A DNA stretch of 55,329 nt from Nitrososphaerota archaeon (GTDB taxonomy: Archaea > Thermoproteota > Nitrososphaeria > Conexivisphaerales > UBA164): the NCBI GenBank assembly GCA_029786595.1, contig JAFLXO010000005.1, positions 4,652 to 59,980 of the forward strand. The letters run 5' to 3'. The translations under genes were made by a program, and so were the position numbers. Positions 1,330-52,763 of this stretch are shown piece by piece (the first letter of the stretch is position 1; every line of letters starts with the position of its first letter). The notes under the pieces were generated by a model. It was not told the DNA's origin and did no database searches. It saw only the letters and a program-made list of their open reading frames with translations.

Positions 1330-1614
1330 TCAGATTATCACGGGCTTCCGTTCAAGAGTCTGTTTTCGGTGTCCTATAAACTCTATTGCCTTGTCCTTCT
1401 GTGAATTTCCCAAATTCACCAATAGGACCGAATCCGCTAACTTATTGATAGTAGATATGATATCCGTGGCCATCAACACCTTTTCCTTTCCCGATAGTTC
1501 ACACAGAAATACTGAAAACTGTAAGGGATCTCCATAACCGCACATGAGGTTATACATCATACGCAACCTCTTGCTGTCTGAGATGTCATACGCTACAAGG
1601 TACTTATTTCGCAT
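1330..1614 (-). CDS. cas2: CRISPR-associated endonuclease Cas2
   Basis: A 94-residue protein of normal Cas2 length. It opens with the beta-strand MRNKYLVAYDISD, which carries the conserved metal-site aspartate (Asp10), followed by the ferredoxin-like fold pattern (QFSVFLCEL as second strand). Cas2 forms the core of the spacer-integration complex with Cas1. It is the last gene of the operon, starting 4 nt after the stop of the cas4-cas1 fusion, and lies nearest the array. Nothing in it looks degraded. Confidence 0.95.
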   Translation of the reverse strand: MRNKYLVAYDISDSKRLRMMYNLMCGYGDPLQFSVFLCELSGKEKVLMATDIISTINKLADSVLLVNLGNSQKDKAIEFIGHRKQTLERKPVII

Positions 1615-1618
1615 AGTT

Positions 1619-5859: not shown

Positions 5860-5885
5860 GGTCTATCGTATATTATGGAGCCCCC

Positions 5886-5901
5886 AGTTATATATAGTTT
5901 T
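5886..5901 (-). promoter_or_regulatory. Candidate internal promoter for csb1
   Basis: The minus strand reads AAAACTATATATAACTG in the only gap of the cas operon. Its centre is about 33 nt upstream of the csb1 TTG codon, predicting a short leader of under 10 nt. Confidence 0.5.
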
Positions 5902-5927
5902 AACATTAAATAATTGAACGGCCATGG

Positions 5928-8054
5928 TCAGTACGATGATGGGAACGATATCAGCCTGTTAGCGTGTTGTAGAAAGCGCCTCCGATCAACCGGTATGAGC
6001 ATAGCGGCGGCAAGGCGCTTCCCTTCTATTTTATCCGGATCGAACCCTGAAACTTTGGCTTGAGAATAGGCTAGCCTCCTGCGGACGGCCTCGCAAGCGT
6101 CATATATCCTGCCTGCCGAAAGGAGCTGTGTAATTTCGTACCTACCTTTGATTTGCACACCTCCGGGGAGTTCGCTTGGCATAAATGCAGTTTTGATGAG
6201 CACGTAGGTGGGTAATACAGGCCGTTGTTGCATTGGGGTGAGCCACCTGCCCTGAATTTCCCGTATTCTGTGCCTGTCCCATTTTAGGCTGATTAGCCCA
6301 AGTAAAAGATCTTCAAGCAGTTCATCATCGGTTTCTGCTAGCATAAATGACATTACATCCTGTGGATCAACTACTAAATCACCTTCAAGACTGGCGGGTT
6401 TTCCTTCGCCCGTCTTATCCATAAATATCCGTTTCTGCAGGACGTTCAGAAGGCGGTCGGACAAGCTGTTTCCATACCACGCAATTGAACTGCTACTGTC
6501 AATCCACTTATTTTCATCGACTGGCAAGATGTTTGCTGAAATGGGAGCCCTTGGCGACAGTGAGGCTAGTGATGCGGCCAGTCTGAGTTCAACGGAGTCC
6601 TCTAACTGTTGAAGCCACTCCAGCCATTTTAAACTCAGAAAACGAGGGGGCTTGCTTGGTACATCCCTTCCTTTTATCCTGTAGGGACCATTTTCAAAGC
6701 GACGCACAAGCGACCCTAGGCCGGTTACGACATTCACCATGCCTTGATCCTGTTCGAACGCACGATGGACAGAAGCGTTTAGATTAGCCACTTCATTCTG
6801 TATGGAGGCAGGCGCAGATCCCACCCTCAGGTTTCTGTTAAGTTCATTTAAAAATGGAAGCACTTCCTTAATGGTATCAGCCATGCTCCTGTGCCTGACA
6901 TCTACCGTTCCAAGTGGTACCGCCAGCCGCGCGTCCCCTCTTCTGACGTAGAGGCCATATTTCGAGAACCTGTTTACCCCTACGTCCACTCCAAGAGAGG
7001 AAATCGCATATGAGAATTCCAAGGAGGTTCTCGCGTCCCTCAGACCAAAACCAGGTTGCCTTATACTTGTTCGGCCCTCCTTAAAGAAGGATCTGATTTC
7101 ATCGTATGTGGCATGTTCTACCCATATAGGTGCCCATATTTCATTTCCCTTCGCGGCGTCCTCTGCGACCGTTTCTCCACCCGTAGGAACTGATTCCACC
7201 GTAAATGGAAAGGCCGAAAGCGCCTTTCCACTCCTCTTCGTTAAACCCCCTGAGAGCATGATCAAGCCTTCAAACATCAATATTATATCCCATGGATTAA
7301 CCGGGGTGACGTCCTTGGCTTCCTGGTCAGGCATGCTAAGCTGGTTGATTCCACCTACTCTTTCTGGGTCATAAAAGCCTGATTTTAATTTCGACCCAGC
7401 TGCTGTATTTGGCGCTAACCCGTATAGAGCATGTCTTAGTAACTCCCCTTGCTCAGTTGAAGTAAACCCCTCAAACGTTGATTCCAAGGCCCTTATGAAG
7501 ACCAACGAAAGCTCTAGCCGTCCGTCGTTCCCGCCGCTTCCAAGCAGCGGGGCATATTGTATTTTGTTACCTATTACGCAGACTGCGTCGATCCATTCCA
7601 CAGCTGATTCTGAAAGATTGTTGCGGCACCACCTGATTGTAATATCTTTATTGCCGCCTTCCTTTTTTGTTTTCCCTTTGTTTTTACCCTCTTTTTCATC
7701 TTTGGCTTTCTTTATTTCCTTGTCCGATATAGCCCGGAATATCCTTTCAATGTCATCCCGATATATATCAAATCTCTTATCACGATTTACCATTATCCAA
7801 TTTATTTCTTTGTCCAGTTTGAAGAAGCCACTCCCGTTGTTCCATGGCGATAGGATGGATGTTGGGCTGTATTCTTTTAGTAGAAAGGCTTCAATATCAG
7901 AGCTGCTGAAGGTCGTCTCTATCCTGAAGGCGTCATCAATCCACCACCCCGTGACGTTCGGGTCCTTTTGCTCGGCCACCAGCCTGAATACCCCCAAGGC
8001 TTTAAGATAGGAAGCTAATGGCTCGGTCCTGCAACCTTTCAGGTCGATTATCAA
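5928..8054 (-). CDS. csx17: Type I-G Csx17, Cas8-like large subunit
   Basis: 708 residues. The N-terminus IDLKGCRTEPLASYLKALG followed by VFRLVAEQKDP is the hallmark of Csx17 (GSU0052 family), the proposed large subunit (Cas8) of the I-G effector, expected to read the PAM and recruit Cas3. A lysine-rich stretch near residues 118-137 looks like a flexible linker. The start overlaps the cas3 stop by 4 nt (ATGA), so the two are translationally coupled. Length is normal for the family and there is no sign of damage. Residue-level function is not known to me. Confidence 0.92.
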   Translation of the reverse strand: MIIDLKGCRTEPLASYLKALGVFRLVAEQKDPNVTGWWIDDAFRIETTFSSSDIEAFLLKEYSPTSILSPWNNGSGFFKLDKEINWIMVNRDKRFDIYRDDIERIFRAISDKEIKKAKDEKEGKNKGKTKKEGGNKDITIRWCRNNLSESAVEWIDAVCVIGNKIQYAPLLGSGGNDGRLELSLVFIRALESTFEGFTSTEQGELLRHALYGLAPNTAAGSKLKSGFYDPERVGGINQLSMPDQEAKDVTPVNPWDIILMFEGLIMLSGGLTKRSGKALSAFPFTVESVPTGGETVAEDAAKGNEIWAPIWVEHATYDEIRSFFKEGRTSIRQPGFGLRDARTSLEFSYAISSLGVDVGVNRFSKYGLYVRRGDARLAVPLGTVDVRHRSMADTIKEVLPFLNELNRNLRVGSAPASIQNEVANLNASVHRAFEQDQGMVNVVTGLGSLVRRFENGPYRIKGRDVPSKPPRFLSLKWLEWLQQLEDSVELRLAASLASLSPRAPISANILPVDENKWIDSSSSIAWYGNSLSDRLLNVLQKRIFMDKTGEGKPASLEGDLVVDPQDVMSFMLAETDDELLEDLLLGLISLKWDRHRIREIQGRWLTPMQQRPVLPTYVLIKTAFMPSELPGGVQIKGRYEITQLLSAGRIYDACEAVRRRLAYSQAKVSGFDPDKIEGKRLAAAMLIPVDRRRFLQHANRLISFPSSY

Positions 8055-10411
8055 TTTAGCCCCCCGCTCGCCCTGCCATCAGCGGCTCTTAGCAAGGCTT
8101 CATAGAATGCAAGCCTAAATGGACCGTATCTTTTAAGCAGTGTGCCGGTTCTTGAACGCCAGCTGCTCTGGCCGAACCCCATAATCGAGAGGTTTAATAT
8201 TGTTCCTGGCATGGAAAACCCGTTAACGGTCAAGCTTGGCACATAATCCCCATCCCAGACACCTAGTGCGAATTTTTCGTTTTTTTCGGGCACCAATTCG
8301 CCTGGCACGGATCTTACCGTCAGTCTCACTTTTCCATGGTGGGCGGCTGCTAAATATGCCACCAGATCATTTGAAAGGCCGTTCTCAAGAATTAGCAGTG
8401 CCGAGACAAGTTCGTGTCTGAAATACTTTCTTTTATCAGGATATGTTTCATTTTGGTTATGCCATTTATCCTTTGGAGCCTTGGCGTATAATTTATCCGG
8501 CGATGGCTTATCCTTCATTTTTGCCTGGAAAGCAGGATGCGCCTTGCCTGCATCGTGCCACATAGCAGCCGCTATAAGGTCTTCTTTTGATGTTTTGACA
8601 CCGACTTCTTCACATAGCTCTCTGGTCTTCTGTGCTACTTCCAACAAATGTTCAGAAATGAGCTTCCATCCTCCCGCCGAGGAAGGATCGCTTGGGTATC
8701 CCCCTAGCGTACTTTCACCAACAGAAAGATCCTCGACTGGTGGCTTGGATGAAGGGTCCCACCCAGTGAGCGTGCTGTAACCCCCCTCTGTAGCGTCCAG
8801 CATAACCACCATGCCCGGGTACCAGGCTACAGGCTTCCTCCATTCCCCTTCTAACGGGTCAAAGTCAAGGGCATTGTGCTTCTCTGACCACTGCCTGACT
8901 TCATCAACAGGAGCTGGACAGAGCTCTTCCCGGCTAGGTTGCACAACGGGCTTCCTTTGTCCCTTCCAGAAATCCTTTGGCTGGCGCCGCCAAAAGACAT
9001 ATGCTAGGTAATCGTTCCCGCTGCGTATGAACCTTGATACATCGGTATTCCTTCCCATGAGGTCCGGCGTGGTATCAAAGAGTTCAATTATATCCTTACG
9101 CCTTATGACATCTCTATGTTTGAACTCTAGCTCAAGCTTGCTCATCTGTATTGGCGACACTTCTGTAAACCCCTTAAGGCGCTCTTCTGCCTCCCTGATT
9201 GCGCTTTCACTATATGGCGCATATGAATTCCTTTGCCCGCCTGGAAGGCGGATCAGGTAGACCGTTGACCTGCTATCGTTGCCCTCCCTGTTACATCTGC
9301 CCATCCTTTGGATAATTGAGGCCAGCGGAGCGAGCTCGGTAAACATTGTTACCGCTGAAATATCCATACCTGCCTCGATCACCTGCGTGCTTACAACTAT
9401 TAGATTGCTGGTCTTATCCAGCAGACGCTTGAGCTTTAGCTGTCTATCCGCAGGCCTGAAGTGTGAATGTAACAGCATTACAGCAGGGCCATCGCGTTTC
9501 CTCAATATACCATCTAGGGCTCTGTAGAGGCCGAGGCTCCTACTAACGGTGTTCAAGACCACTAAGGTCTTTGTACCCATTATATGCCTACTGATTATCT
9601 CTTCGGCGAGCTTGTCATAGTCCTTGGTTGTGCTTTGAGCATATGCCAGCTTTTTAGGAGCAAACATACGCTTTTGTAGCTCGGTAGACATCGGGTCCGA
9701 AAGGTCCGAAGTATCCAACTCAAGCGTTTCTATACCTTCACCATTAAAGTCTCTAGTTGTGAGCCATTTTTTTCGGAGGGTGGCGCTCATCCAAATACTT
9801 TCGGTTTGAGCTTCAGTGCCTATCTGCCTCCTGAAGGCCTCCAATTGGATGGATGTAGCTAATCCGCTATCCATCAATTGGACTTCATCAAACACCCACC
9901 TACAGTCATTATTAAGTAACCCGAATTGCATTGGCCACCTGAACCTGCTCATGGCGTAGCCACGGTTAAGAGCGCGGGAAAGAAGCATATCCTGCGTGCC
10001 TATTATTACAATGTCATCTTCTGGATAGATATCCCAATCGTTCGCCTCTTCACCACCCATAAGAGTGACTATTGACACCTTTTTCTTGCCGTGGTCAATT
10101 AAATCGGTGGCCTTGGTTAGGTTACTTAGCCATTGTTGTATGTTATCTCTAGTCTGTTCAACCAATGTGCGCAACGGTAGGCAGTAAACCAGTCTTCTGG
10201 GTGTTGAATTTCTCACCCCTCCGTCATCGGTATACCTGCGTTGCCACAACCATGAAAGGAAAATGGCTGCAGTTTTACCCCCACCCGTAGGTATACTTAT
10301 CAAATCATACTTCCTTTTGGATAACATTACCTGATATTTGAACGGGTTTTTGCCCTCAGTAGCCTGATAGAAAAAATTCCTGAAATTTTTATCGGCTACA
10401 TCCTCACTCAT
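8051..10411 (-). CDS. cas3: Cas3 helicase with C-terminal HD nuclease
   Basis: An SF2 helicase followed by an HD nuclease, the reversed order seen in type I-G. Helicase motifs are clear: Walker A IPTGGGKTA near the N-terminus, the DEVQ box in WVFDEVQLMD, STQVIEAGMDIS (motif V) and QRMGRCNREG (motif VI). The HD domain near residue 630 has MWHDAGKAHPAF, then FRHELVSALL and AAAHHGKVR. It degrades target DNA after Cascade binding. The frame extends 6 codons up to an ATG at 10429, but a TATA box at 10431-10441 is 26 nt from the ATG at 10411, which favours the shorter leaderless form. First gene of the operon. Confidence 0.95.
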   Translation of the reverse strand: MSEDVADKNFRNFFYQATEGKNPFKYQVMLSKRKYDLISIPTGGGKTAAIFLSWLWQRRYTDDGGVRNSTPRRLVYCLPLRTLVEQTRDNIQQWLSNLTKATDLIDHGKKKVSIVTLMGGEEANDWDIYPEDDIVIIGTQDMLLSRALNRGYAMSRFRWPMQFGLLNNDCRWVFDEVQLMDSGLATSIQLEAFRRQIGTEAQTESIWMSATLRKKWLTTRDFNGEGIETLELDTSDLSDPMSTELQKRMFAPKKLAYAQSTTKDYDKLAEEIISRHIMGTKTLVVLNTVSRSLGLYRALDGILRKRDGPAVMLLHSHFRPADRQLKLKRLLDKTSNLIVVSTQVIEAGMDISAVTMFTELAPLASIIQRMGRCNREGNDSRSTVYLIRLPGGQRNSYAPYSESAIREAEERLKGFTEVSPIQMSKLELEFKHRDVIRRKDIIELFDTTPDLMGRNTDVSRFIRSGNDYLAYVFWRRQPKDFWKGQRKPVVQPSREELCPAPVDEVRQWSEKHNALDFDPLEGEWRKPVAWYPGMVVMLDATEGGYSTLTGWDPSSKPPVEDLSVGESTLGGYPSDPSSAGGWKLISEHLLEVAQKTRELCEEVGVKTSKEDLIAAAMWHDAGKAHPAFQAKMKDKPSPDKLYAKAPKDKWHNQNETYPDKRKYFRHELVSALLILENGLSNDLVAYLAAAHHGKVRLTVRSVPGELVPEKNEKFALGVWDGDYVPSLTVNGFSMPGTILNLSIMGFGQSSWRSRTGTLLKRYGPFRLAFYEALLRAADGRASGGLN

Positions 10412-10430
10412 TGTGTATCTGCATTCCATC

Positions 10431-10734: not shown

Positions 10735-10858
10735 TCAGCTACGCATAATCCCGTACCTTAGCCGTTAATCATTGATTGATATGTGAATGTCCTGAATGGC
10801 CGTCCCTTTGTTATGGCTCCTAGCCAACCGGGGAGCCGCCATCGGAGGCTGATGAAAA

Positions 10859-11065
10859 ATGAATAAAGGGAAGAATGGTAACAAAGGAAATATGATAACG
10901 ACAAAGAAAACCGTAGAAATAGACCGTGATGGCACCGGGTATAAACTTACTGTGAAGAAGAATTTCGAATCTTATGCGCGGAAGCTGAAGGATATGGCAA
11001 AGGCTGGATTGGCGGAAGTGGCGGTGGCATCAGACCATTTGTGCCTTGCGGGATCCGAGATTTGA
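10859..11065 (+). CDS. Small lysine-rich protein, unknown
   Basis: 68 residues with GGAGG 11 nt before the ATG. The middle part, TVEIDRDGTGYKLTVKKNFESY, reads like a short beta-rich domain, but the C-terminus is not convincing and I recognise no family. It may be a truncated gene. 11066-11300 contains no other supported gene. Confidence 0.25.
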   Translation: MNKGKNGNKGNMITTKKTVEIDRDGTGYKLTVKKNFESYARKLKDMAKAGLAEVAVASDHLCLAGSEI

Positions 11066-11270
11066 AAATGAAGGCATAAACAAACGCAGGCACAGAGAAC
11101 TAGGAGGAGTTAAATGCCGACGGCTAAGAGCTTCCCACACCGCTTTCGGATCGTTTGCAGCTTATTTCCTGATTCAACCACACACAGCTAGCAATGTATC
11201 CCCCCGTTGGTGTCCCCACAGGCATGAACACCTTCTCGCATTTTATGCATGATTACACCGGATCAGTTAC

Positions 11271-39951: not shown

Positions 39952-39972
39952 CCAGTGGCAGCCCGTCATCAT

Positions 39973-39981
39973 CTTTTTAAG
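39973..39981 (+). promoter_or_regulatory. TATA box for pilin-like gene
   Basis: CTTTTTAAG centred 29 nt before ATG 40006. Confidence 0.6.
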
Positions 39982-40005
39982 CCCGTTTTGCCCAAGAAAA
40001 GGTGT

Positions 40006-40596
40006 ATGCCTTTTGGTGTCAGAATGAGGAGGAAGGGCGTTAGCCGAATCACGACTGCATTTGCGGTGGCGATAATAATCATAATCATCGCTGTAGCCGG
40101 ATTTATTATATTTAGTGCTGGTGGGCTTGGCAACATTGGAATCGGAACTGGTGGAAACGGCGGCGGAGCCAATTCAAACGTGCCAGCGCAAATAGTTATT
40201 ACTTCAACTAATCCCACACTGGAACAAAGCATTGCGCCTGCTGGAGTCGATCTTCTTTATTATAAGCCGCTTGTATTACAACCGAACACGAATTATACGT
40301 TCCCAATAACGATTACTGTAGAAAACAGCGCAGGCGAAGTATTGAACACGTCCATTGTAATTACACCAGTGAATTGTACCTTCATTTATCCAAAAGATAA
40401 TATTTTATACTACGTATCTCCGTCTTCGGGCGTTTCTCCGTTTAATGCAACTTTGGTAATTGTTACGGGAAGCACAGTAAATTTTGGGCAAACAACTGAT
40501 GGTGATATTAGCTTGAGCTTTACACTATCCACTGCTATGGTAAAGAATCCAAATATATATAATATTCTTATTGCAAATTCAAGTTACAAATCATGA
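40006..40596 (+). CDS. Archaeal pilin-like surface protein
   Basis: 196 residues. A basic stretch ending RRKGVS precedes a long hydrophobic helix (TTAFAVAIIIIIIAVAGFII), the pattern of archaeal type IV pilin signal peptides (Lys-Gly-Val-Ser, cleaved after Gly by PibD). A glycine-rich linker (GGNGGGAN) leads to a beta-rich domain with sequons NYT, NTS, NCT and NAT. It may be a pilin subunit or a simple anchored surface protein. The TadC-like gene at 53706 would be a suitable assembly partner, but it is far away. Confidence 0.65.
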   Translation: MPFGVRMRRKGVSRITTAFAVAIIIIIIAVAGFIIFSAGGLGNIGIGTGGNGGGANSNVPAQIVITSTNPTLEQSIAPAGVDLLYYKPLVLQPNTNYTFPITITVENSAGEVLNTSIVITPVNCTFIYPKDNILYYVSPSSGVSPFNATLVIVTGSTVNFGQTTDGDISLSFTLSTAMVKNPNIYNILIANSSYKS

Positions 40597-40617
40597 TCAT
40601 AGTAATTAAATTACTCG

Positions 40618-42687
40618 TTAAGTATTAGGGCTTGTAGCACCCATATACCCACCGTTTGTATTAAAAACCGCATTAGCATAAGATATACCTGTATTGCCGA
40701 TTGGATTGTTCACAGTATATGAATAATACCCATTACTAGCGGTTACAGTGTAGCCGGTCGCTAAATGCCCGCCGCCGCCATTATCGAAATATACAGTTAT
40801 TGTTTGCCCGCCCAGCCCTGCGCCATTATCGGATGTAGTTAGATATCCGTAAATCGTGTATGTACCAACGCCGGTGGTGAAGCCGGCACTCAATCCAGTT
40901 GGCGTGTAGTATGCCGCCGTAACGCTGGCCGTACCACCGGAACCAACTGATACAGAAGAAGGCGCACTGTATACACTCAAACCGTATTGTGAGTTACTAT
41001 AGGAAATCGAATATGTGCCCGGCGGCACCCAAGCTACGGCATCACTCCCACCACTATATACTAACTGTTTCCCGTTAGAAAGCGTAGCGGTAGAAATTGC
41101 GGTCGCCCCAGTGCCATAATCCTGCGATGAGTAGAATATTTCACCATCTTCACCAAAGTTCGCGCCGATCGAAGTTGGTGAGTATATGTTGAACTGGTAT
41201 GGATTGCCGCCCGAAACACCAGTCCACGATGAAAAATACCAATTTGTAGATGGGTACGCCGTCACCGTCACCAGCGTGCTCTCATTATACCAGCCACCGC
41301 CAGATACAGAACCAGAGCCAGAGTTCACATACGCATTCACGTAAAGCTGTGTGGTGTATGAAGCCGTGATGGTGGTGGAACCGTAGATGGTTTGCGAACC
41401 GCTCGAAGGATTCGGATTCACATACTGCACTCCGGAGCCGCCGCTGAAAGAGCTCCCGAAAGTATAGGTTATCGTGCTTCCGTAGTTGACCGTAACGCTG
41501 TAAGGCGTGGTTCCAGAACCGTAGTTCGTGGATACAGGTGCACCGCTGACCGGATTTGACTGGAACGTGACTGAATAGGAGTTAATGCCAAAGTTCGCGT
41601 ATATAGAGTTGGGCCCGTTCATGGTGACAGAATAGGTTGAACCAGTATTGCCGTTAGACCAATCGATGAAGTGCCATCCGCCTGCTGGAGATTCTGAGGC
41701 TGTTGCAGTGGAGCCAGCGTTGTACCAGCCGGAGCCGGATACGGAGCCTGAGCCGCTGGCTATGCCCACGGTAAAGTAGTACTGGAGCTGGTATGCTGCG
41801 GTTATGGATCCGCTGCCGGTTACTGTGAACGAGCCTGATTGCGAAGATGATAATCCGGTTGTGCTTTCCCATACATATTGCGCTCCTGAGCCGCCGGAGA
41901 CAGGGGATATCCATGAGAATGAGTGGGTTGTACCCTCCTGCCAGGTGAAGCTGATTGGCAATTGTGAATATGTGTACGGGTTGCCATCCACTGTTAGCAC
42001 TGTGCCGCTTGCGCTTGAACTCATTCCTGTTTGTGCGAATGTTACTGTTGCGTATATTGGGTTGAATGTGGCGGCTTCTGTTATGTTAGACCACATGTAC
42101 ACGGAGAACGTCTGATCCGAACCGCTGTAGCTGTACTGCCCCGTCCCTGTCCAGCCGCCCCACGAATAATACTGCGCCGGGGCGGCGGTCAGCGTGACCT
42201 TATCGCCGTAGGTGTAATAATATGTGCCTGGCGCTGGGGTGGTGGACCCGCCAGGGGTAGAAGTGATGGTGAGAGCGTATATATCAACGGTCGGGTTGTT
42301 TATGTCGAAGGGGACGTACCATTCGTTTCCGTAGGACGTCAAAATCGCATACCGGTACGGCGTCTGCAACGTAAAGTTGTAGCTGGAGCCCGGGTACAGC
42401 GTTATGGATTCGTTGATAAACGTGGGCGGGCTGCCGGTGTTCGGGTTCCATACCATTATCTGCGTTATCCTGGCCGTGTACTGCCCGCCGTTCGTGACCT
42501 CAAGGGTGGAGCCGCTGATGGCCATGGACAGGTACTCGGCGTCCTTGTAATGTAACAGGTTCGTAACTTGCTGCTCCTGATACAGGCTGCTGAAGATGCC
42601 CACGGCGAAGAACGAAATGGCCAGCACACACGCTACGGCGATCAACAGCACAAGCAGGCCGGCGAGCATGGAGGAGACAGCCTTCAT
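40618..42687 (-). CDS. Large repeat-rich surface protein (InlB-repeat-like)
   Basis: 689 residues. One N-terminal helix (about residues 7-32) is followed by an extracellular part built from repeats of about 70 residues that contain patterns such as GSGSVSGSGWYNAGSTATA, then HFIDWSNG and SIYANFG. This is the divergent InlB B-repeat style seen in adhesins. The sequence is very rich in Gly, Ser, Thr and Tyr. The C-terminal 90 residues form a carboxypeptidase-regulatory-like domain (TGVGTYTIYGYLTTSDNGAG). TATA CTTTTAAGC 24 nt upstream marks a leaderless start. Likely role: attachment or cell-cell contact. Confidence 0.75.
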   Translation of the reverse strand: MKAVSSMLAGLLVLLIAVACVLAISFFAVGIFSSLYQEQQVTNLLHYKDAEYLSMAISGSTLEVTNGGQYTARITQIMVWNPNTGSPPTFINESITLYPGSSYNFTLQTPYRYAILTSYGNEWYVPFDINNPTVDIYALTITSTPGGSTTPAPGTYYYTYGDKVTLTAAPAQYYSWGGWTGTGQYSYSGSDQTFSVYMWSNITEAATFNPIYATVTFAQTGMSSSASGTVLTVDGNPYTYSQLPISFTWQEGTTHSFSWISPVSGGSGAQYVWESTTGLSSSQSGSFTVTGSGSITAAYQLQYYFTVGIASGSGSVSGSGWYNAGSTATASESPAGGWHFIDWSNGNTGSTYSVTMNGPNSIYANFGINSYSVTFQSNPVSGAPVSTNYGSGTTPYSVTVNYGSTITYTFGSSFSGGSGVQYVNPNPSSGSQTIYGSTTITASYTTQLYVNAYVNSGSGSVSGGGWYNESTLVTVTAYPSTNWYFSSWTGVSGGNPYQFNIYSPTSIGANFGEDGEIFYSSQDYGTGATAISTATLSNGKQLVYSGGSDAVAWVPPGTYSISYSNSQYGLSVYSAPSSVSVGSGGTASVTAAYYTPTGLSAGFTTGVGTYTIYGYLTTSDNGAGLGGQTITVYFDNGGGGHLATGYTVTASNGYYSYTVNNPIGNTGISYANAVFNTNGGYMGATSPNT

Positions 42688-42734: not shown

Positions 42735-43020
42735 AGATGTTTTACATAACCGCTCAACGCCGCTCCTCAGCAGGCAAAGGGTTGGGCTGTGCCCACACCG
42801 CCGGCCATTATTTTTTTACAAACCATGCACAGGGTGGACAGGACCGGGCGGAGCCCTCGTCAAGAAGGAATACATGGACTATCATCTAAAGCAACACTAG
42901 GGCCAGCCTGCGTTTTCCTACCGGATACCTACTTCACATATGGGTTTGAACTTCATGCCCAATATCCTTAAGTGCAATTATTAAAATAACGCCATGTTAA
43001 TTTTATTAAGCGAGCGTCGT
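42735..43020 (+). mobile_element. Internally deleted derivative of the 48-51 kb replicon
   Basis: 42735-42838 matches the left end of the replicon (ATGTTTTACAT arm, then the block shared with 48311-48410). 42847-43020 matches its right end (51156-51330): the last 17 codons of the replication protein, ALVKKEYMDYHLKQH and stop, plus about 120 nt downstream. Everything between is gone. Divergence from the intact copy is noticeable, so it is old. On the minus strand the piece still carries KKIMAGGVGTA, the C-terminus of the small membrane protein of the replicon. Confidence 0.8.
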
Positions 43021-45350: not shown

Positions 45351-45517
45351 ATTTTTTGCCCCTTTGGGCCTTGGAAAACGGTTGCAGATTATCAGCCCAG
45401 CGCGGGCCTGGGTTAGAACGGCGCAGATCAGCCCCATCCAATATACGCATATCCGGGGCACAGCGTTCAAAGGACACGGTCTATCGATCGATCAAGCAAA
45501 CAAATGATGTACGGAAA

Positions 45518-45642
45518 TTTACCGCTAAATTGAAGGTGTAAAAATCAGAGGAGGGGGTTATGTAAAACATTATCAGGATGTTTTACATGACCCGCTGAAC
45601 GCCGCTCCTCAGCAGGCAAAGGGTTAGGCGGTGCCCAGAGGA
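45518..45642 (+). repeat. Isolated copy of the replicon left end
   Basis: About 118-125 nt matching 48240-48366 with only a handful of differences. It includes the inverted repeat ATGTAAAACAT (45560-45570) and ATGTTTTACAT (45578-45588), separated by 7 nt. It stands alone, about 2.7 kb before the intact copy. 45356-45517 holds nothing else I recognise. Confidence 0.85.
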
Positions 45643-45742
45643 TGCTCCAAAAAACGCTTAGGTAGGTAAAAACGTTTGCAAATCGTTGAGCTGCGCCAAA
45701 TATCAAGAGTTTCAATGCTATCAATGGTTTTCCATTTTCCAT
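45545..45742 (-). CDS. Small hydrophobic protein ending inside the repeat
   Basis: 65 residues: MENGKPLIALKLLIFGAAQR, a hydrophobic middle (NVFTYLSVFWSILWAPP), then a polar tail encoded by the replicon-end repeat. TATA GGTTAAATAGGG at 45760-45771 is 24 nt from the ATG. By position it is the counterpart of the 40-residue protein at 48346, but in a different frame of the repeat. It may be a gene whose end was replaced by the repeat. Confidence 0.35.
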   Translation of the reverse strand: MENGKPLIALKLLIFGAAQRFANVFTYLSVFWSILWAPPNPLPAEERRSAGHVKHPDNVLHNPLL

Positions 45743-45759
45743 TGCTCTAACTTTTTTGC

Positions 45760-45771
45760 CCTATTTAACCC
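45760..45771 (-). promoter_or_regulatory. TATA box for gene 45545
   Basis: Minus strand GGTTAAATAGGG, 24 nt before ATG 45742. Confidence 0.5.
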
Positions 45772-46211
45772 CCTACTCCTATTTCCCTTTGCCTCGGGGA
45801 GCAAGATGTAATTTTAATGAAAGGATGAGGTAATTATACGGAGCTTGAATGGGGATGGAAAGTCAGAAGAAGGGAGTATGGAAAAGCGTTGATATCCTTG
45901 ATACCTTGATGTTTGGGCTGCGCCCGCCTTCTGGCACAGTACCATATACCGTGTATTCTTCTTATTATTGATCGTCCTATTGATATTATGCGCCGAGTAT
46001 GCCCTATATTTTTCAGGGCGGCGGTGCGCGAGCTTGGGACATATGCCCTGTAGCTATCACGCCGCTGGTGATAGAAGACCTTTACCGTCAGACCTGAAAT
46101 ATGTCTGAGGCCTTCAATAGTGAAGGTGTGTACGGGCCTTAGGTAATGGCTGCTCCAGAACATGCGTTAAATTTTTTTACAAACCTCAAACCAACTCGCC
46201 AGTTAATGAAG
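45772..46211. other. Gap without a supported gene
   Basis: Short frames on both strands (for example 45834-46163 on the minus strand) have no protein-like composition. Fragments such as IDRPIDIMRRVCPIFFRAAV on the plus strand hint at a decayed gene, but none can be named. Confidence 0.4.
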
Positions 46212-46223
46212 CATTTATATAAG
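46212..46223 (+). promoter_or_regulatory. TATA box for the Nmad pair
   Basis: CATTTATATAAG centred 26 nt before ATG 46244. Confidence 0.65.
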
Positions 46224-46243
46224 AATGGATATATATAGGAATT

Positions 46244-46963
46244 ATGTGCTTAGGTAACGGTCAAGAAGCACTTCATCAGAATGTATCTGACGGGGAATTT
46301 TTTAATAAAATTGATGTAACAAAGGGGGAACTTGAAAGGAAGTTGGAAAAGTACAAGGCAGAGGAGGTTTATGCTTACATAGTACAATCTGTTGAATATG
46401 ACGGGTCAAAATTTTTACAGGCTGCCACAGGGCCGAACTTTGAAGGAGGGATAATAACTCTGTGTACATGTAAGCATAGGATGCGAGCCAGCAGTAGAAA
46501 GGTGAAAGAAGGATGGAAGTCAACCTGGATAGCGGGCTTTACGGGCCAACGCTTATTCAGGGATGGGCGGAATTATCTGTTCTATCTGATGCGCGTGGGG
46601 GAAGCGTTTCCGTCACAGAAAGCCCTTTGGGACAGCCTGGATACACATACACGGGAAGTGAAGAACGCTCTACATAACCCACTGGGCGACCTGTATCAAC
46701 CCAAGCCGTCCCCTGAATTTAAGAGTGAATATGAATGGGGCAGTTACTATGAACCCTGCAAGGACCATGATCACCGTAAGGATGGTATATGGAAAGGCGA
46801 TATAGATTATAAAGGTTTACACCCTTCCCTATTGCTCGGGGAAAAGGATAACAGCTACCTGTGGTTTGATAAGAGTAGGGCCCCAAGCTACAAAGGCGAC
46901 GGAAAGCAGTTCCGGCAGAAGAAATTCAATAGCTTGGAGGCATTCCTCAGGGAGCTCAGATAA
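46244..46963 (+). CDS. Nmad2-like protein (nucleotide-modification-associated)
   Basis: 239 residues. The central segment resembles Nmad2 domains: YAYIVQSVEYDG, then GGIITLCTCKHRMRASSRKV, a basic WIAGFTG strand, and YLFYLMRVGEAFPSQKALWD. Known Nmad2 proteins share the pattern TLA-x-CKP-x-IR and GDWIVG, and are predicted to act with modified nucleotides or DNA. The C-terminus (LHPSLLLGEKDNSYLWFDKS) looks like a second small region. It is co-transcribed with an Nmad3-like gene 14 nt downstream, from a leaderless promoter. Substrate and activity are unknown. Confidence 0.6.
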   Translation: MCLGNGQEALHQNVSDGEFFNKIDVTKGELERKLEKYKAEEVYAYIVQSVEYDGSKFLQAATGPNFEGGIITLCTCKHRMRASSRKVKEGWKSTWIAGFTGQRLFRDGRNYLFYLMRVGEAFPSQKALWDSLDTHTREVKNALHNPLGDLYQPKPSPEFKSEYEWGSYYEPCKDHDHRKDGIWKGDIDYKGLHPSLLLGEKDNSYLWFDKSRAPSYKGDGKQFRQKKFNSLEAFLRELR

Positions 46964-46977
46964 TCTGTGTCACGGAC

Positions 46978-47643
46978 ATGTCATGCATACTGATCAATGT
47001 CGGGTCCGGAGGGTCTAATCCGAACGGCAGGGGGAGAATATTTGATGACGGAACCTATGAATACCTGCCACTTCCGGAGCAGGAAAGGACCAGTGAGAAA
47101 ATTCCCACTTACAGGGACATCGGGTTCGAAAAGGTAAAATTCCCTGATATTGCAGTTCACCTTGACCCTGAATTCGAGACCTATACATATGGTCATGTCA
47201 TAAGGGGGTTCGGGGACGTAAGGCTCTTCGTGGGTCTCAAAGCCGGCGGCATGCTCGTCTTTTACTCGACCCTTCAGAATGGCCACCATTGGGCACCATA
47301 CATAATAGGGTACTTCTTCGTTGACCGGGCCATAGATTGCAGGAATTTTCAGGCCTCGGATATCTTCGCTCTCAGATCCGAGGGCTTTCAGAATAACGCC
47401 CATCTGAAGAGGATTGACCCTCAGGTTGATTTTCTGGTCAAAGGCGATGATAACTCCAGATTGCTGAAGAAGGCCTTTCGGATGACAGAAACAACGGAGC
47501 CGCTCGCCCTGCGAAAATCATTGAGAAACCTTCTATTCACGCCTAGCGGGCGGGCAATTGGCGACAGAAAACCATGGTACAGGTGGACGCTGATCTGTAA
47601 AAACCCTTCAGAACTCCTACAGGTCATTGCAGAAGACAGTTAA
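46978..47643 (+). CDS. Nmad3-like protein (nucleotide-modification-associated)
   Basis: 221 residues. It shows Nmad3-type features: RGRIFDDGTYEYLPLPE, VHLDPEFETYTYGHV, FGDVRLFVGLKAGGMLVFYS and YIIGYFFVDRA. Nmad3 proteins are predicted to bind or process modified nucleotides and are often near Nmad2. The C-terminal 70 residues are basic. It follows the Nmad2-like gene with a 14-nt gap and lies in an accessory region next to a replicon, so a role in mobile-element or defence biology is plausible but unproven. Confidence 0.6.
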   Translation: MSCILINVGSGGSNPNGRGRIFDDGTYEYLPLPEQERTSEKIPTYRDIGFEKVKFPDIAVHLDPEFETYTYGHVIRGFGDVRLFVGLKAGGMLVFYSTLQNGHHWAPYIIGYFFVDRAIDCRNFQASDIFALRSEGFQNNAHLKRIDPQVDFLVKGDDNSRLLKKAFRMTETTEPLALRKSLRNLLFTPSGRAIGDRKPWYRWTLICKNPSELLQVIAEDS

Positions 47644-47645
47644 TA

Positions 47646-47774
47646 TTAGCTTTCCGATTTCATTAACGCATCATTGATGTTTACATCCATGATCGAACAT
47701 AAAGGTTCTAGGTACTTCTGGACATCCAAGGGCGAAGATTGAACATTACCAGTACTCCGAACTAGAATGACCAT
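47646..47774 (-). CDS. 42-residue protein, unknown
   Basis: A short frame opening MVILVRSTGNVQSSPLDVQK, acidic towards the end (DVNINDALMKSES). A TATA-like CCTATATAATAA lies about 32 nt upstream. It converges on the Nmad3-like gene with a 2-nt gap. It may be a small gene or the end of a lost one. Confidence 0.3.
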   Translation of the reverse strand: MVILVRSTGNVQSSPLDVQKYLEPLCSIMDVNINDALMKSES

Positions 47775-48035
47775 CTAATCATGCCATAGAAATCGATTCT
47801 TTATTATATAGGGAATGCAGCCATATTGAACCTCATCCACATAAATACAATAATAATAAATCTGGAATATTTGAAAGACAGAAAGCCCTATTTCTTAAGT
47901 TTATAAACTGAGTTGGTTACGAATTAGACTTTGCTTTTGAGAATACCCAGAGGGCACCGTGGGCAGTGCTGCCGACGTAGCTGCTAATTTTTATTTTCTG
48001 CGTTTGGGGGAGCTATAATAAGCTTCATATATATA

Positions 48036-48197
48036 TTGAGCGAGGAACTCAAGCTACTTGGAGTCAGGAAATTTCCTATGACTTCAAAAAGCATATGTAA
48101 TAAAATAGACACATATAAATCATTACTTTACCTTTTTGCAGTTGAATCAAAATTTGGGTCTTTGTTATCTGTGATGATCGCCATGTTCGATGCATAG
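48036..48197 (+). pseudogene. C-terminal fragment of a membrane-associated protein
   Basis: From a TTG the frame reads LSEELKLLGVRKFPMTSKSI and ends SLLSVMIAMFDA. Further upstream, up to a TAA, it stays open and hydrophobic (FLFSAFGGAIISFIYI), without an ATG. Probably the remnant of a larger gene. 47775-48035 otherwise holds nothing recognisable. Confidence 0.3.
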
Positions 48198-48239
48198 GAA
48201 GGCAATATCGGAGGAGAGTAATATGGTTTTATGGTGAGG

Positions 48240-48366
48240 TTTACCGCTAAATTGAAGGTGTAAAAATCAGAGGATAGGGTTATGTAAAACATTATCAGGA
48301 TGTTTTACATGACTCGCTCAACGCCGCTCCTCAGCAGGCAAAGGGTTAGGCGGTGCCCACACCGCC
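48240..48366 (+). repeat. Left end of replicon with inverted repeat
   Basis: The 11-bp arms ATGTAAAACAT (48282-48292) and ATGTTTTACAT (48300-48310) form a perfect inverted repeat around TATCAGG. The block is nearly identical to 45518-45642 and partly present at 42735. Read on the minus strand it is the 3' region of the small membrane protein gene, so the hairpin could end that transcript, or serve as an origin or recombination site. Confidence 0.85.
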
Positions 48367-48468
48367 AGACATTATTTTTTTGAAAACCATGGACAGGGCG
48401 GACAAGACGGCGCCCAGTATTAATGCTATCAATGTCCTTCCAAATATTTTTCTAAAAACCCCTGACAT
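48346..48468 (-). CDS. 40-residue single-helix membrane protein of the replicon
   Basis: Too short for most ORF cutoffs. It opens MSGVFRKIFGRTLIALILGA, continues VLSALSMVFKKIM and ends SGGVGTA. One membrane helix lies between basic flanks. The C-terminus is preserved in the deleted replicon copy (KKIMAGGVGTA), which supports real coding. A strong TATA GCTTATATAGGG lies at 48557-48568, giving a leader of about 70 nt that holds three 9-bp iterons. Divergent from the replication gene. Possible roles: membrane attachment of replication, or a toxin-like function. Confidence 0.6.
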   Translation of the reverse strand: MSGVFRKIFGRTLIALILGAVLSALSMVFKKIMSGGVGTA

Positions 48469-48496
48469 GGTTGGTTTTCTGGGTAGGGATCAAGCG

Positions 48497-48523
48497 TGTC
48501 AACCCTGTCAACCCTGTCATGGG
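48497..48523 (+). repeat. Iteron triplet 1
   Basis: Three 9-bp direct repeats in a row: TGTCAACCC, TGTCAACCC and TGTCATGGG. They lie between the small membrane gene and its promoter. Likely binding sites for the replication protein or a regulator. Confidence 0.7.
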
Positions 48524-48556
48524 GTTGGTATACTGTTACCCCCTAACCTTTACTCA

Positions 48557-48568
48557 CCCTATATAAGC
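48557..48568 (-). promoter_or_regulatory. TATA box for small membrane protein
   Basis: Minus strand GCTTATATAGGG. It predicts transcription start near 48538, upstream of iteron triplet 1. Confidence 0.55.
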
Positions 48569-48676
48569 TCCCTTTTTTTCTCTTGGTTTGTGTTTAAAAA
48601 CCGCTGTTTTTACATGTGGAATAAGGGGTTTAAATAGGGCAGTGGAAATTTAAGGGGCTACAATATGGCACCCCCC

Positions 48677-48703
48677 TGACAGCCCTGACAGGGGTGACAC
48701 GGT
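48677..48703 (+). repeat. Iteron triplet 2
   Basis: TGACAGCCC, TGACAGGGG and TGACACGGT in a row, same 9-bp period as triplet 1 and related to it (TG-T/A-CA core). Located just before the replication gene; a further CCCTGTCATG is at 48724-48733. Typical of a plasmid-like origin or autoregulatory operator. Confidence 0.7.
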
Positions 48704-48734
48704 CATCCGAACCCCAAGGGCGACCCTGTCATGC

Positions 48735-48743
48735 CTTTTAAGC
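48735..48743 (+). promoter_or_regulatory. TATA box for replication protein
   Basis: CTTTTAAGC centred 25 nt before ATG 48764. A second TATA-like GGTTTAAATAGG lies near 48630. Confidence 0.65.
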
Positions 48744-48763
48744 AAATTTTTGCATGCGTGCGC

Positions 48764-51214
48764 ATGTCGGCCAAGATCGATTTTGACATGGGCCTCAACG
48801 TCATCCCGCTCGAACAGGGGAAAAAGACCCCCGCCGTGGATTGGAAGAATTTTCAAACGCGCCATCTCTCTCAGGAGGAGTTTAATGAGTGGTTCGGGCA
48901 GGACCCGAACCGTAACCATGCGGTGATAGGCGGCGTCACATCCCACAACCTCGTGGTGCTCGATTTTGAGGCGTGGAATGATTTTGTGGCCTTCTTCCCG
49001 GAGTGGGAGAGGCTGGCGAAGACCACCCGCGTCGTGAAGACGCCCCATGGCGGCGCCCATGTATATTATTATACACAGGAGGAGGTCCAGCGCAGGATCA
49101 AGGTGTTTGGCGACAAACATCAGGTTGACGTGTGCGGGTGGGGCGGCTATGTATGCGGGATCGGCACGGTCATCGACCATGCGCTGTGCGACAAAAAGAA
49201 GTGCCACATAGATTCCGGCAAGAGCACGTACGAAGCCGTCGGGACCATGGACATTTCGGTAGTCGGAAAGGGGCTCCTCGCATCTTTCCTTGATCGAGGC
49301 CGGAGGCTGGGCTGGCAGGTTGAGGTGCTGAAGGACACCAGGCCCGAGAGGGACACCTTTGATCACCTGCTCACCGTGGATGGCCGGCTGAACGGCCTCT
49401 TCAACGGCGACATTGAAGGATATGCGTCCCGCTCTGAGGCTGAATTTGCGCTCGTCATAAGGCTGATCAGCTACGGCTTCAGCGATGAGCAGATCAACCG
49501 AATAATGAAAGATTCAAGGATAGGCAAGTGGAACGAGTCCGAACAGTATGCCGAATACACGCTGCGGAAGGCGCACGAATGGATCGTGCGCGATCGCTCC
49601 GTGACTGCGGACGAATCGCCGTCCCTCCTAGGCCTCGGCAACCCCTCGGACGCGGCCGACCACGTCCTCGAGCGCTTTCATATCATCACCACGGACGACG
49701 GCCTGTACGTATACGACGAAGGGCTGGGGATGTACAGGCAGGGGATGGAGAAGGCGATCCAGGCGTGGGCCGAGCAGCAGGCCCGTGTTTCAGGCGGCAA
49801 TATATCACTTCGTTACATTGCTGAAATGTTTGGCCACATACAGCGCAGGACCTATGAGCGCGATATAGCGGACAACACGGATGTGTTCCACCTGAAAAAC
49901 GGCATACTGAACATGAAGACCGGTGAATTTATCGACCACACGCCCGATAAGGCGTATTTCTCCGCAATCCAGCTTCCGGTGAAGTACGACCCGAAGGCGA
50001 AGTGCCCGCTGATATTGAAGTTCATTTCTGAAATCGTCTACCCCGAAGACATCGCCGTCATTCAGGAGTTCACAGGCTACATGTTCTACCGTGGATATCC
50101 GGTGGCAGCTGCGCTGCTGCTCGTGGGCGGCGGCAGCAACGGCAAGTCCACACTGATCAGCCTGATCAAGGCCCTTCTGGGGCCATCGAACATCGCCACG
50201 TGCAGCCTTCAGGAGCTGGAGTACAACCACTTCGCCAAGGCCGACCTCGTGGGCAAGCTTGCTAACCTCTTTGCTGACCTGTCCGACGTGGCGCTGAAGT
50301 CCACGGGGGTGTTCAAGATGCTCACCGGCGGCGACCCGATCACCGCTGAGCGAAAGTACGGCCAGCGGTCCCCGTTCGTGAACTATGCAAAGCTCGTTTT
50401 CAGCGCGAACAAGGTTCCGATGGCATACGACGACAGCGATGCGTTCTTCCGGCGTTTCATCATCGTCAAGTTCCCGATGACGTTCAACAAAAGGACCGCC
50501 GACGCCCGGCTGCTTGAGAAGCTCACGACCGAGGAGGAGCTGTCCGGCCTCCTGAACTGGGGGCTTGAAGGCCTGCGGCGCCTCATGGACAACGGGTTCG
50601 TGTTCTCGAATTCCAAGAGCGTAGAGGAGATAAAGGACGAATACATCAGGATGTCAAACCCTGTGGAGGCGTTTTTCATGGACATGGTGGAGGAGGACCC
50701 GGAGAAGCGCATCGCCAAGGCTGACCTCTATCAGGCGTATGTAAGCTACTGCAAGGCGAGGAAGCTGGCGCCCGTAACTATGCCCACCTTCTTCCTGAAC
50801 GTGAAGAAGAACGGCCGCAACTACAGCGAGACGAGGTTAACATCCGAAGAGAACGGAAGGAAGGTGCGGTACAGCGCCTTTCTGGGGATCGCGCTGAAGT
50901 CCAGCGGTTCAGGTGAGCGGCCTTTAGATGCTACTCCCGTAGTACAACCGGCAAAGGATACGGAACCCGAAGCGGCTAAACCGGAGGCTAGGTCAGAGGC
51001 TAGGTCAGAGGCCAAGCCAGAGGCCAAGTTGGAGGCCAAGCCGGCAGACGAGAGGGCCGCGGAGGCGCCCGATACAGCGCCAGCGAAAACTGATAGCGCC
51101 CCGGGCTTTGATGTGGTCAACGACGTTGCCGCAGGCGTGCAGATATACCGGTGCAGGGAGTGCGGGGCCCTTGTCAAGAAGGAATACATGTCCGACCACC
51201 TGAAGCAGCACTAG
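48764..51214 (+). CDS. Replication protein: Prim-Pol primase-polymerase plus SF3 helicase
   Basis: 816 residues from the leaderless start. The N-terminal 190 residues are a bifunctional primase-polymerase: GLNVIPLEQGKKTPAVDWK, HNLVVLDFEAWND (catalytic acidic pair) and TPHGGAHVYYY. A D5-like linker follows, then an SF3 helicase with Walker A GGGSNGKSTL (about residue 455), Walker B-like LANLFADLSD and the motif KLVFSANKVPM. The C-terminus has a Pro/Glu/Ala/Lys repeat region (EAKPEA-like) and ends in CRECGALVKKEYMSDHLKQH, a small zinc-finger-like tail. It should prime and unwind replicon DNA at the iterons. The frame also contains an ATG at 48731, before the TATA box. Confidence 0.9.
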   Translation: MSAKIDFDMGLNVIPLEQGKKTPAVDWKNFQTRHLSQEEFNEWFGQDPNRNHAVIGGVTSHNLVVLDFEAWNDFVAFFPEWERLAKTTRVVKTPHGGAHVYYYTQEEVQRRIKVFGDKHQVDVCGWGGYVCGIGTVIDHALCDKKKCHIDSGKSTYEAVGTMDISVVGKGLLASFLDRGRRLGWQVEVLKDTRPERDTFDHLLTVDGRLNGLFNGDIEGYASRSEAEFALVIRLISYGFSDEQINRIMKDSRIGKWNESEQYAEYTLRKAHEWIVRDRSVTADESPSLLGLGNPSDAADHVLERFHIITTDDGLYVYDEGLGMYRQGMEKAIQAWAEQQARVSGGNISLRYIAEMFGHIQRRTYERDIADNTDVFHLKNGILNMKTGEFIDHTPDKAYFSAIQLPVKYDPKAKCPLILKFISEIVYPEDIAVIQEFTGYMFYRGYPVAAALLLVGGGSNGKSTLISLIKALLGPSNIATCSLQELEYNHFAKADLVGKLANLFADLSDVALKSTGVFKMLTGGDPITAERKYGQRSPFVNYAKLVFSANKVPMAYDDSDAFFRRFIIVKFPMTFNKRTADARLLEKLTTEEELSGLLNWGLEGLRRLMDNGFVFSNSKSVEEIKDEYIRMSNPVEAFFMDMVEEDPEKRIAKADLYQAYVSYCKARKLAPVTMPTFFLNVKKNGRNYSETRLTSEENGRKVRYSAFLGIALKSSGSGERPLDATPVVQPAKDTEPEAAKPEARSEARSEAKPEAKLEAKPADERAAEAPDTAPAKTDSAPGFDVVNDVAAGVQIYRCRECGALVKKEYMSDHLKQH

Positions 51215-51330
51215 GGACGGCCTGGATTTTCCCACTGGATATATACTTCACATAAGGGTTTGAACTCCATGCCCAATATCCTTATGTGCAATTATTGGCA
51301 TAATGTCATGTTAACTTGATTGAGCGAAGC
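51156..51330 (+). repeat. Right end of replicon
   Basis: Matches 42847-43020: the last codons of the replication gene and about 115 nt after it, including GGGTTTGAACT and CCCAATATCCTTA. It defines the right boundary near 51330. No flanking target duplication or integrase gene is evident. Confidence 0.75.
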
Positions 51331-51362
51331 GTCCAATTTGTCTTGAAATGGATTTCAGGTAA

Positions 51363-51375
51363 AAATATATAAATT
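51363..51375 (+). promoter_or_regulatory. TATA box for nucleoside-phosphorylase-like gene
   Basis: AAATATATAAATT centred 27 nt before ATG 51396. Confidence 0.65.
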
Positions 51376-51395
51376 TAATTATGTATTAGGCATCA

Positions 51396-52763
51396 ATGAA
51401 TCTGAAAATAGTAGCCGCTGTATTGATAGTTCTAACAGTAATAGGCTTCTCTGCATTCGCGTATGACCAGTTCTATGTCATACCTTCTCAACAGACGCAG
51501 TTGAACAACGCTGAGGCCAGTATATCTGCCATGGCACAGAGCCTGAGTTCCATGACCGCTGAATTCCAGTCTATAAATTCAAGCCTTTTGAACCTCAGCA
51601 ATGGCCTTTCTGGCGAGCAGTCCGTTATAACCCTACTCAATTCAAGCATAACTTCAGAGAATTCTCAGCTGATAAGCCTGGAGCAGAATCTGATGGAAAC
51701 ACCAAGGATAGGTATAGTCAACCCAGTTTCATTTGAGCAGGCGCCAATCCTGGCAGCGATGAGCGTCCAGGCTTCTGTTAAAATAGATGGATACACGTTC
51801 TGGCTTGGCACTATAGGAAATCACCAGGTAGTAGAGGTAAGGAGCGGAGAGAAGGAATTTGCTTCAGAGCTGGCTACGGTCCTCATGGATACGCATTTCA
51901 ACATTGTCGCAAACATAATGTCCGGAATAGCAGGCTCAAGGAATCCAAATCTCAAAACTGGCGACGTGCTGATAGGCGCGTTCGTGGTAAACCCTGACGC
52001 CATTAAATACTCCTATGACGGAACGCAGATACCCTATACCACCGAAATGGTTACAACGCCAAACTCACTGATAAACGGCACAATAATAACTGGCTACGGA
52101 CAGACCGGCGCTACCCCAAGCGATGCCTCCACATACGGTTATGGCCCGGGAGATAATAATTCGTCATTTCCCTATATCGCAGACTTTGTGGCATCTGCAG
52201 GCCTAGTGCAGATCGCAGAAGGGGCCTCTGGAATACTGGGCTCCACCAGCAATTCATACATAACCGGTAATCCCAATGCAACCGGCACGTCGCCTGCCAA
52301 TGAAATGATCGGCGTTATAAGTTCGTCATCTCACTGGACCAATCCGGTGTCCATCAACGGTGTGCAGAATGCGCTTTACCAGACCGATGCTGGGGAAAAT
52401 GAGGGATTTGGGTTCGCATATGCCAATACGCAACTGGGCATTCCATGGGTCGTGGTCAGGGGCATATCCAACTCTCACTTTGTGCTTAACGTCTTCAAAG
52501 GCACGCTGGCTGCGGACAGGGCTGCGAATGTGACAGTTTACATCATAGATCACTTTAATATGAACGGCATGCTGTATCAGCCTGCAACATTTTCGATGCT
52601 ATCGGGCAATTCCAACGCAGCGATGCACGGGTACATAGTCGCTGATTCAGCAACCTATAATATGACCAATATAACAGTAACTCAGGTGCAGTACACCGCT
52701 CAGAACGGGTCGATCATAACCATAACGAACCCCAATATGTTAGAATATACAGGTCCCAACTGA
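51396..52763 (+). CDS. Membrane-anchored nucleoside-phosphorylase-like protein
   Basis: 455 residues. One N-terminal helix (about residues 4-24) is followed by a coiled-coil-like stretch (25-100), then a domain of the purine nucleoside phosphorylase/MTA-SAH nucleosidase fold. Fold marks are RIGIVNPVSFEQAP, NIMSGIAGSRNPNLKTGDVL (about 174-193) and PWVVVRGISNS (about 349). The topology and sequons (NSS, NLS, NAT, NVT, NMT, NIT) place the domain outside the membrane, which is unusual for this cytosolic enzyme fold. It may salvage extracellular nucleosides or sense them. The gene starts 65 nt after the replicon's right end. Confidence 0.75.
   Translation: MNLKIVAAVLIVLTVIGFSAFAYDQFYVIPSQQTQLNNAEASISAMAQSLSSMTAEFQSINSSLLNLSNGLSGEQSVITLLNSSITSENSQLISLEQNLMETPRIGIVNPVSFEQAPILAAMSVQASVKIDGYTFWLGTIGNHQVVEVRSGEKEFASELATVLMDTHFNIVANIMSGIAGSRNPNLKTGDVLIGAFVVNPDAIKYSYDGTQIPYTTEMVTTPNSLINGTIITGYGQTGATPSDASTYGYGPGDNNSSFPYIADFVASAGLVQIAEGASGILGSTSNSYITGNPNATGTSPANEMIGVISSSSHWTNPVSINGVQNALYQTDAGENEGFGFAYANTQLGIPWVVVRGISNSHFVLNVFKGTLAADRAANVTVYIIDHFNMNGMLYQPATFSMLSGNSNAAMHGYIVADSATYNMTNITVTQVQYTAQNGSIITITNPNMLEYTGPN

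Follow-up and report, generated by a model that had tools for sequence, protein, structure and literature searches.

The window analyzed here is the whole 55,329-nucleotide stretch from a Nitrososphaerota archaeon, which corresponds to bases 4652–59980 of contig C66, reaches the contig end, and belongs to a MAG of 1.61 Mb in 110 contigs. A gene encoding a replication protein (Rep) of 816 amino acids was found at 48764–51214 on the forward strand. Pfam searches revealed a Prim-Pol domain (PF09250, E = 8e-13), a D5_N domain (E = 8e-12), and an SF3 helicase domain (DUF5906/primase_Cterm, E = 6e-21), and the protein also matched NCBIfam TIGR01613 (E = 1.5e-57). The D.E, H, and D residues of Prim-Pol and the Walker A, B-like, and C motifs of SF3 helicases are all present, so that the Prim-Pol/SF3 replication protein proposed by an earlier sequence-only reading of this DNA is supported by both domains and core motifs. 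In the same window, a CRISPR-like array with a spacing of about 72 bp occupies positions 1–1035 and is followed at 1330–10429 by cas-like genes (Cas2, a Cas4–Cas1 fusion, Csb/Cas8-like, and Cas3), whose type I-G (I-U) look was read from translations alone.

Several copies of the Rep unit, with different flanking DNA, were detected. Besides that of the window (copy A), they include copy D on contig C20, copy J on contig C89 (cut by the contig end), and copy H on contig C40, of which only the left end is present. Among relatives, the nearest named ones both carry Rep: copy I is found in G002 (archaeon TL1-5.bin24, same genus), where it is cut by the contig end, and a further copy in G007 (Nitrososphaeria archaeon DRTY3_bin.13, same family). 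At the threshold used, Rep was absent from 50 of 61 relatives' genomes. Contigs C89, C40, and C20 carry versions of genes of the window or of C66 at 80–94%, and the MAG therefore seems to be a mixture of two close strains. This mixture (C20, C40, and C89 vs. C66) bears on any copy-number claim, and we thus label copies by their contig and derive no per-cell count from them. Copies A and J share one locus in the two strains, so the copy at this locus may be long fixed.

Comparison of these copies helped to define the protein. The reading frame of Rep reaches upstream to an ATG at 48731; however, copies D and I carry a stop just upstream of the ATG at 48764 (protein start MSAK), and the latter is therefore probably the true start. 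The dN/dS ratio was 0.20 between copies A and J, 0.21 between A and D, and about 0.09 in the comparison with G007, at which distance synonymous sites are nearly saturated, and purifying selection on Rep thus spans five copies (0.09–0.21). The Rep gene is intact, constrained, and maintained as a protein. Motif reading and comparison of copies also identified a C2H2-like zinc-finger tail, CRECGALVKKEYMSDHLKQH, at 51152–51211 (forward strand), as the sequence-only reading had noticed, though it is variable: it is kept in A and J, lies beyond a stop codon in D, and is missing from the protein end in G007.

Between the left end of the unit and Rep, upstream of the gene, lie two triplets of 9-bp iterons. 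The first consists of three TGTCAN4 repeats with a 9-bp period (48497–48523, forward strand, with repeats at 48497, 48506, and 48515), and the second of three inverted N4TGACA repeats with the same period (48673–48699, reverse strand, at 48677, 48686, and 48695). When the whole window was scanned for two inverted triplets of 5-mers about 9 bp apart, only two places were found: 48497/48677, with no mismatch, and 45702/45889, with one mismatch. In 30 Markov-simulated windows, the best such 3+3 layout had three mismatches. Copies D and I retain the layout, keeping TGTCA at identical spacing while the four spacer bases vary, which is the pattern expected if the repeats are protein-binding iterons. 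The iterons are thus far beyond chance and conserved in sister copies. DNA folding placed both triplets in the arms of an extended hairpin of about 300 bp (48440–48760; −59.5 kcal/mol, z = −4.8, equalled in 0 of 100 shuffles), which we consider a candidate origin. Covariation of this hairpin with copies D and I was uninformative, with a term of +1.58 from three close sequences.

Purifying selection on Rep and the shared locus of copies A and J would also be expected of a domesticated chromosomal primase–helicase locus that has ceased to act in replication and is retained because it serves the host. Such a role is nevertheless very unlikely, considering that the iteron triplets are conserved along with Rep, that copies occur at several loci together with deleted derivatives, and that Rep is missing from most of the relatives' genomes.

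An open reading frame of 40 amino acids on the reverse strand (48346–48468) had been proposed to encode a divergent membrane protein. Copies D, I, and H preserve neither its start codon nor its frame nor its hydrophobic stretch, and by this comparison it is a chance ORF.

We then examined the borders of the Rep unit. The terminal inverted repeat that had been proposed was not supported: the best end-to-end inverted match was 8 bp, and 28 of 60 shuffles did as well or better. On the left, several copies have other DNA beyond a border at about 48300. On the right, position 51215 onward contains a short spacer and then a remnant (51257–51355) that matches the noncoding end of an insertion sequence, with a degenerate terminal repeat. 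In the relative G001, this element (G001:C59:4256-5144; L071 1466-2354) has perfect 16-bp terminal repeats, a 3-bp TAC duplication, and a broken transposase frame, from whose resemblance we presume it to be IS5-like. There it has the opposite orientation and occupies the orthologous position, to the left of the gene of the phosphorylase family that lies at 51396 in the window. Homology to the short copies of the Rep unit stops at about 51333, and the neighboring locus of G001, without Rep, resumes at 51340; in short copies C and E, the sequence to the right merges with an end of a different insertion sequence. Judged from these alignments, the right border is a scar and not a designed end, and the idea that the unit is complete in itself, as a 3.1-kb element with designed ends, lost its support. 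A DNA transposon with terminal inverted repeats, bounded either by the ends first proposed or by IS5-like ends, could draw on the right end and its intact form in G001. That explanation is largely refuted by the lack of a matching left repeat; furthermore, the unit has no transposase and copy D has no insertion-sequence tail, and we regard it as barely credible.

The left end is marked by a palindrome of 37 bp, GGTTATGTAAAACAT-TATCAGG-ATGTTTTACATGACT (48278–48314). The same palindrome, GGTTATGTAAAAC...GTTTTACATAACC, recurs in the interval that separates an NADH-oxidase-like gene from a zinc-ribbon ORF, both in G001 and on C20 as well as where C66 begins. A copy of this resident sequence lies in the window at 45420–45592 (forward strand; the same as on C20, the beginning of C66, and G001:C55). 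A short deleted copy of the Rep unit at 42737–43018 (forward strand), in which the left end is fused to the final ~170 bp of the unit, retains the element half of the palindrome alone. The short copies C and E have only the element half, and remnant H has a degraded piece of it. These half-palindromes fit crossing-over within the palindrome. Read as ATGTAAAACAT-TATCAGG-ATGTTTTACAT, the site fits the shape of a Xer/dif-type or tyrosine-recombinase site, with inverted ~11-bp arms around a 6–8-bp spacer, and each strain has a single instance of it, in a conserved locus of the host. Compared with bacterial dif, its arms appear to face the wrong way. The published dif layout is 11-6-11 (PMC2958812). 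No host recombinase could be tied to the palindrome, those examined sitting in other elements. The palindrome could also be an operator or a repeat hot-spot and not a recombination site.

Genes for pilin-like secreted repeat proteins adjoin copies of the Rep unit in two cases. They were observed at 39955–42687 of the window, at C20:3977-6675, on C15, and on G001:C65, and their 5′ ends recur across loci, with DNA identity of up to 98% over 110 bp (in another species-level genome).

Immediately left of the Rep unit, a sister unit of about 2.7 kb (45593–48277) was found, which shares its opening palindrome and 45 bp of sequence with the Rep unit before diverging. It has a second origin followed by two genes, Nmad2 and Nmad3, in place of Rep. 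The iterons of this origin are of ATCAA type, compared with TGTCA in the neighboring Rep unit, and comprise a direct triplet at 45702–45728 (forward strand) and an inverted triplet at 45885–45910 (reverse strand), with one mismatch over both. Its fold (45640–45960, z = −2.05) is weaker than the hairpin of the Rep unit. The sister origin is nearer to that of the G007 Rep, which it matches in both arms with six compensatory pairs; all cells pair, compared with 42–57% in slid controls, in a structure derived from these same two sequences. The Nmad2-like gene (46244–46963, forward strand) matched PF18753 with E = 1.9e-4 and 21.5 bits, below the cut-off of 26.1, and the Nmad3 gene (46978–47643, forward strand) matched PF18754 with E = 2e-18. 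Nmad3 was not detected in 150 other genomes of the class, and it thus looks acquired; among viral contigs and phages no Nmad3 was found, and in plasmids there were three weak matches.

The sister unit is bracketed by a direct repeat of 120 bp, whose first copy (45518–45637, forward strand) holds the palindrome at 45556–45592 and whose second copy (48240–48359, forward strand) is identical to it at 116 positions, with four differences. A simple account of this arrangement may be that a circle integrated by recombination inside the repeat. No remnant of Rep was detected within the unit by tblastn, and it therefore has an origin of the Rep family without a Rep gene. Hence, it is a possible satellite; it was probably a related replicon that either depended on a Rep or had lost one, and it would have entered by recombination within the 120-bp repeat.

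To place Rep among known replicons, we compared it with 72,556 plasmids. The best full-length matches were pHEN7, pRN1, pRN2, and pDL10 (23–31% identity), and the best match to its primase half in PDB was ORF904. Searches of viral contigs, by protein and by alignment, yielded no close Rep, the sole match (L127) being distant at 30%, and the unit could not be assigned to a known family of integrated viruses that shares these ends. No close relative and no free circle turned up in the plasmid and viral collections. The suggested resemblance to pRN1-like plasmids was well founded. As in the pRN1 family of Sulfolobales (pRN1, pHEN7, pRN2, and pDL10), Rep has an N-terminal Prim-Pol and a C-terminal SF3 helicase, and the proteins, with the Prim-Pol plus D5_N/SF3 order, can be aligned over 55–88% of their length; both also have a stem-loop origin. 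On the other hand, the origin is upstream of Rep in the window and downstream in pRN1 (PMC4234260), and the window differs in having three units per arm, a longer hairpin, a variable C2H2 tail, a chromosomal location, and low protein identity. The gene set is different as well, as had been claimed: neither a CopG (ORF56-like) nor a PlrA ORF was found in 48240–51396, whereas pRN1 and pHEN7 have a CopG-type gene and PlrA. The term "new element family" was nonetheless too strong, and the unit is better described as a divergent branch of pRN1-type/P4-family-primase replicons that has relatives within the same class of archaea.

To examine how general the iteron layout is, we scanned 425 kb of sequence, made up of the window plus 32 other loci that encode Prim-Pol/SF3 or P4-family Reps. 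At up to two mismatches, five shuffled sets gave 1, 0, 0, 1, and 0 matches. In the loci themselves, matches at this threshold also occurred away from Rep ends (window 53470, L052 10319, L119 3274, and L116 4495); thus, only 3+3 matches with 0–1 mismatch were used. These were found in G005 (twice), G001, G002, the C20 copy, two Halarchaeum plasmids, a Halomarina plasmid, and the window, and all of them, except that of the Rep-less unit, lie no more than 700 bp from one end of a Rep gene. The 3+3 layout is thus shared by Rep loci from elsewhere in Nitrososphaeria and by haloarchaeal plasmids. In Halarchaeum pCBA1220-04 and -05, inverted 3+3 iterons (GTCCA, 10-bp period) lie directly upstream of a P4-family primase gene, as in the window; unlike the window unit, these are free plasmids of 24.6 and 14.6 kb with a larger Rep and other genes. 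The near-perfect inverted 9-bp triplets of L046 (G005:C2; 16397–16530 and 5663–5790) and L049 (G001:C21; 5045–5170) are at the 3′ ends of Prim-Pol/SF3 genes, two of the three inside coding sequence, and the larger regions around them also encode a tyrosine recombinase. Directly 3′ of another Prim-Pol/SF3 gene, L047 (G005:C8) has a perfect inverted repeat of 44 bp whose loop spans 271 bp (10757–11115).

The scan did not call the G007 origin, whose hairpin was recognized by reading and folding. It gave nothing in pHEN7, pRN2, pDL10, and pSSVx, and nothing near Rep in pRN1. A 2+2 version was read post hoc in the stem-loop arms of pRN1, pHEN7, pRN2, and pSR11, each arm as two 9-bp units; in pRN1 the arm is TTATGTCCATAGTGTCCAACT and one of its units TGTCCATAG. 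The pRN1 origin has been published as a stem-loop downstream of Rep without iterons (PMC4234260), a view that this post hoc doublet reading would qualify.

The window unit shares its class and the domain order of Rep with the cryptic integrated elements and ICEs of Thaumarchaeota that have primpol-S3H; however, those usually carry Xer-type integrases and many genes and are often located at tRNA genes (PMC6563490), none of which was seen here. No tyrosine integrase was found among the ORFs and Pfam matches of the Rep unit, in agreement with the original observation, and PF00589 matches were on other contigs. Could the unit be what remains of a larger integrated element, either conjugative or cryptic, from which insertion sequences and deletions removed the integrase and other genes and left the replication module behind? 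The integrases of the published elements, the scar at the right end, and the Reps of G005 and G001, which have the same iteron layout and lie in larger regions that also encode a tyrosine recombinase and contain ribbon-helix-helix-like genes, would be compatible with such a history. Several copies, however, share the same compact arrangement of half-palindrome, left end, origin, and Rep, with no integrase beside Rep, and we consider this origin of the unit rather unlikely, if plausible.

We regard it as fairly probable that the locus is an origin–Rep module that belongs to a lineage of pRN1-type plasmids in Nitrososphaeria (probably Conexivisphaerales) and that is now part of the chromosome, with no integrase of its own. 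In such a module, Rep would bind the inverted 9-bp iterons, load as an SF3 helicase, and open or extrude the hairpin, after which its Prim-Pol domain would lay the first primer. Considering that the unit encodes no recombinase, integration or spread might have relied on recombination supplied in trans, either at the palindrome of the left end or between shared sequences; replication and circularization of the unit, as well as the recombinase, are what we infer from sequence. A bolder combination is that the Nmad unit is a true satellite, which borrows Prim-Pol/SF3 Reps in trans for its own iteron–hairpin origin and is moved at the shared palindrome by a recombinase of the host, and that inverted 9-bp iteron arms are a general origin code of pRN1-type replicons; we hold this to be doubtful.

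Origin recognition in pRN1-type plasmids is disputed between rolling circle from the stem-loop and assembly of helicase and primase, and the origin has been said to be iteron-free (PMC4234260). The candidate satellite replicon carries nucleotide-modification-type genes, and the replication module, coming from a little-studied archaeal order, is a possible start for a vector. The shared origin layout in distant relatives suggests how this plasmid class may mark its start point, and hairpin arms made of tandem 9-bp units in those relatives would provide an exact prediction for footprinting and mutagenesis.
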